Positions 3,705 through 5,735 of a DNA stretch of 5,735 nucleotides are shown here, piece by piece (positions within the stretch are counted from its first letter, which is position 1; every line of letters starts with the position of its first letter). The position numbers were made by a program, and so were the translations under genes. Source of the stretch: an uncultured Flavobacterium sp. (GTDB lineage: Bacteria; Bacteroidota; Bacteroidia; Flavobacteriales; Flavobacteriaceae); NCBI RefSeq assembly GCF_946479975.1, contig NZ_CAMLIX010000280.1, positions 1 to 5,735 on the forward strand, given 5' to 3'. The notes below the pieces were generated by a model that saw nothing but the letters and a program-made list of their open reading frames with translations, was not told where the DNA came from and made no database searches.

Positions 3705-4136
3705 ATGCCATTTTCAGAATTATTTGATAACGAATTCAAACAAAGAAACAGAGGTCATTTCTCTGCAATTGTGCGTGTAGCTTTTGCTGACGGAAAAATA
3801 AGCCAAGAAGAACAAGAATTCTTGAATAAAATCGCTTCGACATTACAAATCTCAGAAGAAGAATACCAAGAAATTCTTTCTGATCCTTGGAAACACCCAA
3901 TAAATCCTCCTTACTTATATACACAACGTTTAGAGCGTTTATATGACTTAGCAAGAATGGTACACGTTGACCACCACTTGGGAGATTTACAAGAAGTAAT
4001 GCTAACCCGTATGGGATTAGCGTTAGGATTTACTCCAGGAAACGTAAATTACATTGTTGCAAAAGCACTTTCTTTAGTAGATAAAAAAGTAGATTTGGAT
4101 ACTTTCCTTTTCGAAATGGAGAATATGAATAAATAG
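3705..4136 (+). CDS. TerB-like family protein
   Basis: The protein has 143 residues, is mostly helical and appears cytoplasmic. The N-terminal half carries the TerB-type signature: IVRVAFADGKISQEEQEFLNKIASTL (22-47), with the acidic ADGxIsxEE turn that in TerB folds can bind metal ions (Asp29, Glu35, Glu36). A second related helix pair follows, with VHVDHHLGDLQEVMLTRMGLALGF (86-109), where Asp89, His90 and His91 occupy the matching turn. TerB domains were named for tellurite resistance operons, but single-domain proteins like this one are widespread and their role is not established; no other ter gene is visible here. It is transcribed alone to the right, with its own -7 element and a strong terminator at 4207-4246. 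It ends in TAG, which only fbp shares in this window, and a 7-base repeat follows at once. Confidence 0.85.
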   Translation: MPFSELFDNEFKQRNRGHFSAIVRVAFADGKISQEEQEFLNKIASTLQISEEEYQEILSDPWKHPINPPYLYTQRLERLYDLARMVHVDHHLGDLQEVMLTRMGLALGFTPGNVNYIVAKALSLVDKKVDLDTFLFEMENMNK

Positions 4137-4164
4137 TATTCAGTGTTCAGTTTTTAGTATTCAG
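4137..4164 (+). repeat. degenerate 7-base tandem repeat after the TerB-like stop codon
   Basis: Four 7-base steps with consensus TNTTCAG follow directly on the TAG stop: TATTCAG, TGTTCAG, the degenerate TTTTTAG, and TATTCAG again. The last step begins a small hairpin, ATTCAG (4159-4164) pairing with CTGAAT (4171-4176). A related array follows the fbp stop codon at 4734-4701 on the other strand. Positions 4177-4206 are plain AT-rich sequence. Confidence 0.65.
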
Positions 4165-4206
4165 TTTATGCTGAATGACTTAAAATTGATATTTATAAAA
4201 AACTAA

Positions 4207-4246
4207 AAACCCGAAAGATTTAAAAATCTTTCGGGTTTGTTTTTTT
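4207..4246 (+). terminator. intrinsic terminator of the TerB-like gene
   Basis: The arms 4207-4221 and 4224-4238 are perfect 15-base complements (left arm begins AAACCCGAAAG) with almost no loop, so the physical loop will be about four bases. A G and then seven T follow (4240-4246). On the minus strand the stem is followed by TTAGTTTTTT, so it could also stop late read-through from fbp. Confidence 0.9.
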
Positions 4247-4248
4247 AT

Positions 4249-4454
4249 ACCGACTCACTCCAGAGGAATGTCTGGTTGGTAGCAATTTAATTTGAATTGC
4301 GGTTATACGTTCCGGAGGAACGTTTGATCACATTCCATACATTGCTTTCGAATCAGGTGTCCTTCCAAGACACAACTAAAAACGAACTATTTTTTTTTCT
4401 ACCGACGAGATAATCCTACGGATTATTAATCTGCATACTTTTACGAAATAACAA
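4249..4454 (+). repeat. 206-base tandem unit, copy A, with hairpin series
   Basis: This is the first of two abutting direct copies with exactly 206-base spacing; it differs from copy B at about 16 positions by hand count. In order it contains: hairpin 1 (4256-4270, six-base stem around AGA, one C-A mismatch); GGTTGGTAG (4274-4282); a GCAATT/AATTGC stem (4282-4300); hairpin 2 (4307-4323, ACGTTCC around GGA); hairpin 3 (4357-4373, GTGTCCT type, one C-A mismatch); a run of nine T (4390-4398); CTACCGACGAGA (4399-4410); and hairpin 4 (4410-4426, ATAATCC around TAC). The reverse complement of 4271-4282 matches 4399-4410 at 10 of 12 bases, so the unit has two related, inverted ends. I see no plausible coding frame. 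It may be a composite palindromic mobile repeat or a structured RNA; neither is proven. Confidence 0.9.
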
Positions 4455-4660
4455 ACCGACTCATTCCAGAGGAATGTCTGGTTGGTAGAAAACAATTTTG
4501 AATTGAGGCGATACGTTCCAGAGGAACGTTTGATTACATTCCATACATTGCTTTCGAATCAGGTGTCCTTCTAGGACACAACTAAAAACGAAATATTTTT
4601 TTTTCTACCGACGAGATAATCCTACGGATTATTAATCTGCATACTTTTACGAAACAGCAA
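4455..4660 (+). repeat. 206-base tandem unit, copy B, with hairpin series
   Basis: This second copy begins exactly where copy A ends. Its hairpins lie at 4462-4476, 4493-4505 (CAATT/AATTG), 4513-4529, 4563-4579 and 4616-4632. Hairpins 1 and 3 are perfect here, whereas copy A has one mismatch in each: T4464-A4474 and C4568-G4574 are proper pairs in copy B. Half of all differences from copy A are concentrated at 4489-4509, yet a CAATT/AATTG stem is kept there in a shifted register. The T9 run (4596-4604) and the CTACCGACGAGA leader (4605-4616) are identical to copy A. Copy B runs directly into the second terminator stem. Confidence 0.9.
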
Positions 4661-4697
4661 ACCCTACAGATTTTTAAAATCTGTAGGGTTTGTTTTT
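4659..4697 (+). terminator. second hairpin terminator, same design as the first
   Basis: The arms 4659-4674 and 4676-4691 are perfect 16-base complements (left arm begins AAACCCTACAG), followed by G and five T (4693-4697). The T tract favours plus-strand transcription, although the nearest gene, fbp, arrives on the minus strand, where the stem is followed only by GCTGTTTCG. It may still terminate fbp, or it may end a transcript that crosses the 206-base units. Confidence 0.75.
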
Positions 4698-4700
4698 ATA

Positions 4701-4734
4701 GCCGATACTGAAAACTGCGACCGAAAACTGAAAA
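4701..4734 (-). repeat. degenerate 7-base repeat after the fbp stop codon
   Basis: Read on the minus strand, directly after the fbp TAG, the sequence runs in steps TTTTCAG, TTTTCGG, TCGCAG (six bases), TTTTCAG and TATCGGC. It is the same kind of repeat as at 4137-4164 and is oriented with its own gene, so the two arrays face each other across the intergenic region. Confidence 0.65.
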
Positions 4735-5735
4735 CTAATTAGCTGCCACCATAAATTCCTCAGCTTTTTCTACCATATTATAACTTCCGCAGAAAAAAGG
4801 AACTCTTTCATGCAATTCAGTTGGCTGGATTTCCATGATTCTTCCAAAGCCGTCTGTTGCTTTTCCTCCTGCTTGTTCTGCTAAAAAGGCCATTGGATTA
4901 CATTCATACAATAAACGTAATTTCCCTTTTGGTGCTTTTGAACTTGTTGGATAAATATAAACGCCGCCTTTAATCATATTTCGATGAAAATCGGCTACTA
5001 AACTACCAATATATCTTGAAGTATAAGGTCGGTCTTCTTCTTCACGCTGGCAGTATTTTATGTAATTTTTTACGCCTTGCGGAAAATGAACATAATTTCC
5101 TTCGTTTACGGAATAAATATTTCCGTCTTTCGGAAATCTCATGTTTGGGTGCGAAAGGTAAAATGTACCAATTGCCGGATTCAATGTAAATCCGTTTACA
5201 CCATAACCTGTTGTGTAAACCAGCATTGTTGAAGTTCCATAAATTACATAGCCTGCTGCAACTTGATTGATTCCCGGTTGTAAAAAATCCTCGCTAGTTA
5301 CCGGAGTTCCCATTGGAGTAATTCTTCTGAAAACAGAAAAAATAGTTCCCACAGAAACATTAACATCAATGTTTGAAGATCCGTCAAGCGGATCCATTAA
5401 GATCACGTACTTATTATTATGACAGTTGTCGCTCCCCTGAACTGTAATAAAATCGTCGTTTTCTTCAGAAGCAATACCACAGACAATCTCACGGTTTATT
5501 AACGTCTGGATAAATACTTCGTTTGCATAGACATCTAATTTTTGCTGATCTTCACCTTGAATATTCTGCTCGCCCGCGGCGCCAATAATATCCACAAGTC
5601 CAGCTTGGTTTACTTTATGATTCACAACCTTGGCTGCCAATCGAATAGAGTTGATAATCCGGGAAAGTTCTCCCGAAGAATACTGAAATGCTTTTTGGTT
5701 CTCAATAATAAACTCTCCCAGTGTTTTATTGCGTT
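4735..5735 (-). CDS. fbp: class I fructose-1,6-bisphosphatase, 5' end beyond the window
   Basis: The enzyme hydrolyses fructose 1,6-bisphosphate to fructose 6-phosphate in gluconeogenesis, in the cytoplasm. The frame is open to the window edge and gives 332 visible residues beginning [16 protein letters not shown]. Class I enzymes are about 330-340 residues, so only about three or four codons including the start are missing. The TTG at 5640-5638 could be misread as a start, but it is an internal leucine (SIRLAAKVV): 31 conserved residues precede it in frame. The metal and catalytic sites are intact: ASEEND (visible residues 88-93) supplies the glutamates, [11 protein letters not shown] (113-123) supplies the aspartates and the phosphate loop, and LLYECNPM (274-281) supplies the later glutamate. 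KGGVYIYP (255-262) and [13 protein letters not shown] (239-251) are further family blocks. It converges on the TerB-like gene, ends in TAG, and is followed by a 7-base repeat. Its promoter lies outside the window. Confidence 0.97.

Follow-up and report, generated by a model that had tools for sequence, protein, structure and literature searches.

The window, a stretch of 5,735 nt of Flavobacterium DNA, contains a TerB-like gene (positions 3705–4136, + strand; Pfam TerB, 37.4 bits over 24.4) and fbp, the gene of fructose-1,6-bisphosphatase (4735–5733, − strand, running off the window), which converge on a gap of 598 nt. Terminator-like hairpins lie 3′ of both genes (4208–4237 on the TerB side and 4660–4690 on the fbp side; features quoted without a sign have no strand assigned). 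Between them sits a tandem repeat built of short hairpins, which raises the question of what this feature is and how it came to occupy the junction. With a probability of roughly three in four, we regard it as a non-autonomous mobile element of Flavobacterium, REPIN-/MITE-like in kind, which would be a gene-less derivative of a subclass 1.2 TnpA element and mobilized by TnpA.

The preliminary description had reported two abutting 206-nt copies, and these are recovered by both TRF and a repeat finder with a period of 206 and 92% identity. Copy 1 (4249–4454) and copy 2 (4455–4660) share 190/206 bases in a gap-free comparison (TRF indels 0%), and the T9 run reported for both copies lies at 4390–4398 and 4596–4604. 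The absence of a credible reading frame is borne out likewise, there being no ORF of at least 60 aa inside 4249–4660. Each copy contains a core of 171 nt (4256–4426 and 4462–4632), which consists of two half-elements in inverted orientation around a 17-nt centre. In copy 1 these are 4256–4331 (+ strand; 74.8 bits with the covariance model R1) and 4349–4426 (− strand; R1 match 4349–4425, 75.9 bits), and in copy 2 they are 4462–4537 (+ strand; 80.8 bits) and 4555–4632 (− strand; R1 match 4555–4631, 78.4 bits). All four are themselves seeds of R1, which spans 76 positions and includes no tnpA locus among its seeds. The cores are separated by a 35-nt spacer (4427–4461). Accordingly, 206 nt holds as the tandem period and not as the natural unit, since this spacer is absent from the repeat found elsewhere; because the period equals the 171-nt core plus the 35-nt spacer, the tandem reads as a local duplication.

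The four hairpins of 15–17 nt with three-base loops that had been claimed for each copy are present, except that hairpins 1 and 3 of copy 1 carry one mismatch each. Outer hairpin 1 (CACTCC/CATTCC-AGA-GGAATG; 4256–4270 in copy 1, with the mismatch, and 4462–4476 in copy 2) is followed on its 3′ side by the conserved tag GGTTGGTAG (4274–4282 and 4480–4488, + strand). Inner hairpin 2 (ACGTTCC-nGA-GGAACGT; 4307–4323 and 4513–4529) is followed by TTGAT. On the other side of the centre are inner hairpin 3 (GTGTCCT-TCn-AnGACAC; 4357–4373, with the mismatch, and 4563–4579), the inverted tag CTACCGACGAGA (4399–4410 and 4605–4616) and, directly after it, outer hairpin 4 (ATAATCC-TAC-GGATTAT; 4410–4426 and 4616–4632). 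Reading 21 copies side by side identifies two inverted half-elements as the natural unit. Each half is formed by an outer hairpin, a GGTAG tag situated 6–7 nt off on the 3′ side of that hairpin, a spacer of approximately 20–30 nt, an inner hairpin and [TC]TGAT. The whole unit thus runs as outer hairpin, TCTCGTCGGTAGAA, spacer, inner hairpin, TTGAT and centre, and is then repeated in mirror image.

This architecture folds strongly, and its stems covary. The folding energy of copy 2 as single-stranded DNA is −29.2 kcal/mol, compared with −15.6 for dinucleotide shuffles (z = −4.95), and 0/200 shuffles are as stable. In an alignment of 25 halves, left and right, comprising the four window halves and 21 dispersed ones, 97.9% of the cells pair when the two stems are imposed. 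Simultaneously, 31 cells are altered on both sides, against a shuffled mean of 7.7 (0/500 as high) and at most three in slid structures. Seven pairs carry a double-sided change (shuffled 4.5; 12/500), and further pair types are not enriched among these halves (10 against 11.5). These figures come from stems picked in the same sequences and from statistics that ignore kinship, and one row (L091), a base out of register, counts against covariation. Beyond the outer hairpin, conservation in 17 CATTCC-type ends (two of them window rows, and L081 and L094 being neighbours) drops to a T at the foot (17/17) and scattered A/T positions at 70%; the flanks of dispersed copies are therefore usually unshared.

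The unit is widely dispersed in the genus. The 412-nt query matches 13/19 Flavobacterium genomes at E 1e-3 or better, as single and as tandem copies, with 38 matches in F. panici (G018, the maximum), 30 in F. notoginsengisoli (G013) and 22 in F. hungaricum (G005). The thought that the unit might occur nowhere else, which would have made a mobile or family-wide element unlikely, is thus set aside. R1 detects halves in 16/17 relatives, up to 115 per genome, and in 14/81 genomes sampled across the genus, leaving 67/81 without a match; all per-genome counts are lower bounds, with 59 or 150 candidates scored per genome. Under strict filters, no match is found in 59 other Flavobacteriaceae genomes. 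In 20 stretches of F. panici chosen for their DNA matches, R1 finds 78 halves, 61 of them at E 9e-11 or better; the remaining 17 (3e-7 to 0.01) are excluded from the pairing count. Inverted pairing is seen for 54 of the 61, with a centre of 20–25 nt and a core of 173–180 nt. At L188:1457–1629 of the same species, two halves stand in outward order with 22 nt between their outer hairpins, resembling a joined end-to-end junction.

Tandem arrays of two, four and six copies are present, the six-copy array with a period of 210–214 and the four-copy array with one of 242–245. Spacers resemble each other within an array and differ between arrays, and the same holds in the window. For this reason the tandem form reads as secondary, the product of a putative local duplication after arrival. 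The comparison of the same TerB–fbp junction in sister strains that had been proposed at the outset finds the unit missing from all 78 relatives with both junction genes, taken from the best 80 of 152 Flavobacterium-type loci obtained with a TerB query; their gaps measure 61–882 nt. BLAST of the unit against the 80 loci gives a best E of 0.13, and R1 has zero matches in all of them (818 kb).

The preliminary description left a choice between a composite palindromic repeat element and a structured RNA. The dispersed singles and arrays, together with the absence from the junction in 78/78 relatives, support the first. The second, in the form of a structured RNA or a bidirectional terminator or mRNA 3′-end element, spread by recombination and kept for its function, is unlikely. 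It would account for the strong folding and the covarying stems, and it is favoured by the gene context: of 35 chosen copies or arrays (20 from F. panici and 15 from DNA-match loci, with mechanical ORFs of at least 80 aa), 23 lie between convergent genes, 12 between co-directional genes and none between divergent genes. A short mechanical ORF of 84–89 aa overlaps the copy in 3/35. Terminator-like hairpins also adjoin copies, and at two sites Flavobacterium sp. Root186 (G019) has such a hairpin where F. panici (G018) has the element. However, the halves are inverted copies of one sequence, which places the conserved unpaired bases on opposite strands, and tnpA genes have similar halves directly beside them. 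The 67 genomes of the genus sample without a match also speak against a retained function. Furthermore, an Rfam scan of the window with E up to 1 yields six matches, none of which reaches the gathering score; four of them fall on a palindrome at 66–142.

The link to a transposase comes from the same halves. Y1_Tnp genes exist in 19/19 relatives' genomes, and 60 tnpA loci (198 kb) were assembled from the best 30 loci of the Y1_Tnp search and a further 30 that one such protein retrieved across the genus, representing 58 distinct genes (L165 = L128, L160 = L135). With a threshold of E 0.01, R1, whose seeds contain no tnpA locus, places 70 halves in 26/60 of these loci; in the 818 kb of control TerB loci it places none, even with E up to 1. 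An earlier, simple motif scan did not separate the two sets (1.05 against 0.83 per 3345 bases); some of its matches in tnpA loci look REP-like by eye, and the count itself is no evidence. In 15/58 tnpA genes, a half-element abuts the start or stop codon. For eight distinct genes the nearest upstream half, in the same orientation, ends 2–10 nt before the start codon as placed by script; for eight, an inverted half is the nearest one downstream, no more than 12 nt from the stop codon; L152 belongs to both groups. Since the halves adjoin its start and stop codons, tnpA occupies the position that the short centre holds in the gene-less unit. All eight loci of clade A (proteins at least 78% identical to L134 of F. 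phragmitis, forming one branch with 100/100) contain R1 halves. In the halves adjoining tnpA the outer hairpin differs somewhat (e.g., ATGTTCCGCTAGGAACAT), and their scores range over 26–75 bits, compared with 93 for the best dispersed halves.

The bordering TnpA proteins, of approximately 150 aa, match TnpA(Y1) subclass 1.2 by motif only. DH[IV]H and Y---Q--HH are present in 8/8 clade A proteins and in most others, and the clade A alignment also holds WQ; together these three form the signature published for the subclass (PMC6006769). Five of five tested TnpA exceed the NCBIfam cut-off for IS200/IS605 transposases, all five remain below that for REP_Tyr_transpos (26–33 against 80 bits), and among solved structures the nearest are transposases such as 2xm3.

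It is improbable that the feature is an ordinary canonical REP/BIME, in which a class 2 RAYT would act on inverted pairs of hairpins with GTAG at the foot. The resemblance to REPINs/BIMEs and their RAYT (TnpA-REP) in Pseudomonas and E. coli includes inverted hairpin doublets (here 54/61 halves paired) with a GTAG-containing tag, intergenic spread in tens of dispersed copies, single and clustered in tandem, and similar hairpins on the borders of a Y1 transposase gene of low copy number. However, GT[AG]G belongs 5′ at the hairpin foot in canonical REPs, as given in the consulted portion of PMC6006769, whereas here GGTAG is on the 3′ side and 6–7 nt away. A second hairpin exists in each half, that is, at each end of the element, and halves abut the gene in several loci. 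Moreover, clade A TnpA possesses Y---Q--HH in place of the class 2 Y---NP, in line with the REP_Tyr_transpos scores. The element works like a REPIN/BIME, and membership is left unclaimed because the tag lies on the other hairpin side and the TnpA belongs to another class.

Other known systems are likewise similar in part. The agreement with subclass 1.2 in Quentin et al. (2018, PMC6006769) extends to the three motifs, the length of approximately 150 aa, the low copy number and the occurrence in Bacteroidetes. Compared with IS200/IS605 elements and MITEs, the element shares its ends with an IS200/IS605-type Y1 transposase and has subterminal hairpins, but its two ends, each with two hairpins, are inverted copies of one another, and a genome has a single clade A gene beside many gene-less units. 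The GTAG/CGTC tagged palindromes (Di Nocera et al. 2013, PMC3733652) are also short, carry an unpaired conserved tag at one end and lie mostly downstream of genes. In the accessible portion of that paper, Bacteroidetes are named for CGTC repeats only, none of them flanking a transposase gene, whereas the present hairpins border tnpA, and the tag of the Flavobacterium element is TCGTCGGTAG in many copies, unlike the GTAG/CGTC type. Among titles and abstract beginnings of the open-licence PMC literature, no description of such Flavobacterium repeats was recognized. The RepRanger tables (PMC12306157) give figures for two Flavobacterium species in rows that mention neither transposase nor IS200 nor RAYT, and may well count these repeats without describing them. 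A term search of PMC2817692 yields no mention of Bacteroidetes.

All eight genomes with clade A TnpA are rich in halves. Clade A TnpA is present in 5/17 genomes, which have 18, 23, 40, 54 and 60 halves, and in 3/81 genomes, which have 22, 24 and 31. Without clade A, the median is five halves over 12 genomes (range 0–115) in the first set, and 67/78 genomes have none in the second. Over the 98 genomes the difference gives a Mann–Whitney p of 6e-8, and among those of at least 4.9 Mb a p of 9e-4, both with kinship ignored. The clade A gene of G025 has two in-frame stops. Several genomes are rich in copies and lack clade A: F. panici (G018) with 115 halves, G097 with 43, G019 with 36, G006 with 31, G075 with 23, G014 with 19 and G095 with 15. 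A clade B TnpA, 59% identical and bordered by similar but weaker-scoring hairpins, occurs in four of them (G014, G018, G075 and G097), and the best TnpA matches in G006, G019 and G095 are 55, 54 and 36% identical. Clade B alone leaves exceptions unexplained, because other genomes with a gene at 59–66% have no halves (G041, G042 and G086) or only 1–4 (G051, G054, G004 and G070). The copy-rich genomes would need a past or related TnpA.

Occupied and empty sites were compared between F. panici (G018) and Flavobacterium sp. Root186 (G019). At four G018 sites the element is missing from G019: one site is clean, two have a terminator-like hairpin instead, and one, the L182 array, corresponds to 3.5 kb of other sequence in G019; at L179, both elements are present in both genomes. 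The insert at the clean site measures 288 nt and comprises the core, a terminator-like hairpin and a spacer, the latter two being common to four other copies. It is bounded on both sides by AATAAAAAAAG, an 11-nt A-rich direct repeat, and the empty G019 site has the same word minus one A. Insertion of IS200/IS605 elements is not known to produce a target duplication, and it adjoins a fixed short target. An 11-nt direct repeat on both sides of an insert that exceeds the core in length, seen at this one site, is not the expected outcome for this family.

The clean site, with its repeated boundary word and its shared hairpin and spacer, would fit a movement of copies through homologous recombination or gene conversion, with A-rich and terminator sequences as the exchanging flanks and tnpA merely sitting in one of the copies; the copy-rich genomes without clade A tnpA point the same way. 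Set against this are the near loss of conservation beyond the outer hairpin in the 17 ends, with flanks usually unshared, and the halves that abut the tnpA start or stop codon in several clades, and we hold recombination to be a poor candidate for the spread. Chance hairpins or decayed coding DNA, the latter already doubted in the preliminary description because of the hairpin density, can be dismissed, since the element is multi-copy, its stems covary, its folding lies outside the shuffle distribution, and nothing was found in favour.

A mobile element derived from a TnpA-encoding parent thus remains the preferred reading. It was probably moved by a single-strand-DNA transposase, because its mirrored halves also border the genes of such transposases. 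In the parent form, a Y1/HUH tnpA of the subclass 1.2 type would lie between inverted halves of the same kind, and in the window the 17-nt centre would replace the gene. Wherever the DNA becomes single-stranded, for instance on the lagging-strand template, the hairpins would fold and be bound by TnpA supplied in trans. Using unpaired bases beside the hairpin foot as a cutting guide, the enzyme could then move or copy the unit, as in the guide and cleavage model for TnpA set out in the consulted part of PMC8266576. By analogy with IS200/IS605 and TnpA-REP, movement in trans as single-stranded DNA is probable. In the window, one unit would have inserted into the TerB–fbp junction, with the terminators of the two convergent genes on either side, and a local duplication would later have doubled it along with a 35-nt spacer.

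Comparable hairpins accompany other TnpA clades. A recurring hairpin within 400 nt of tnpA is found at 47/55 loci, 26 of them with it on both sides, compared with 7/477 control genes of the TerB loci (one on both sides), whose flanks may be coding; the 55 loci remain after dropping two duplicates, one locus without a recognized ORF and two fragments below 100 aa. Table 1 of PMC6006769 lists REP as "no" for subclass 1.2, whereas most of the Flavobacterium genes tested are accompanied by REP-like repeats. A tree was built from 51 TnpA after the removal of nine of the 60 that were duplicates or fragments; 34 of its rows received a hairpin class by visual inspection, and 17 rows are classless. These classes require five changes on the tree (minimum four), compared with 20.9 when shuffled (0/200). 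Classes A and D change once, B and C twice, and E three times. A hairpin listing suggests that different TnpA clades have different hairpins, and joint inheritance of the gene and its ends may explain the fit. The clade C hairpin CTGGACTGAAGTCCAG is dispersed in 12/19 genomes, often as inverted pairs approximately 80 nt apart, and its reversed control pattern is found in 0/19.

We consider it likely, somewhat less firmly than the reading of the window itself, that the subclass 1.2 TnpA of Flavobacterium form a diverse group of REP systems in their own right. Each clade would have its own hairpin family, with inverted two-hairpin ends able to abut the tnpA start and stop codons, and would shed units of four hairpins that lack the gene, disperse and multiply in tandem arrays. 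The element of the window would be such a unit, belonging to one clade. If true, this supplies the missing substrate for a transposase subclass thought to have none, and it forms a bridge between IS200-type sequences, in which the gene lies inside the ends, and REP systems, in which hairpins spread from a gene. Several testable enzyme–substrate pairs within one genus would also become available for following how hairpin and guide change together with TnpA. Simultaneously, the element accounts for a set of short intergenic Flavobacterium repeats.

Further features were observed in the window and at related junctions. The TerB–fbp junction of F. chungbukense (L007) carries three tandem copies of a different four-hairpin composite with CTGGACTGAAGTCCAG ends, which is of the clade C hairpin kind. 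The junction thus carries two repeat families, the window element and this composite, which hints at shared landing sites. The junctions of L004, L006, L041 and L078 contain different inserts, some hundred nt long and small-gene-like by eye. Degenerate CAGT/ACTG words in inverted order lie outside both terminators of the window (4137–4170 and 4707–4737) and are also seen by eye at the TerB–fbp junctions of several relatives. At 69–139 of the window, a long palindrome with a 25-base arm (AACCATATAAGTGATATAAGTTCAT) adjoins a gene at 155–472 (lipoprotein-like by eye), and the weak Rfam miRNA matches on it look like chance. In addition, terminator-like palindromes of the AAACCCGACAGATTTT type, including those at 4208–4237 and 4660–4690 of the window and others at many loci, noted by eye and uncounted, recur intergenically, often adjoining hairpin elements.
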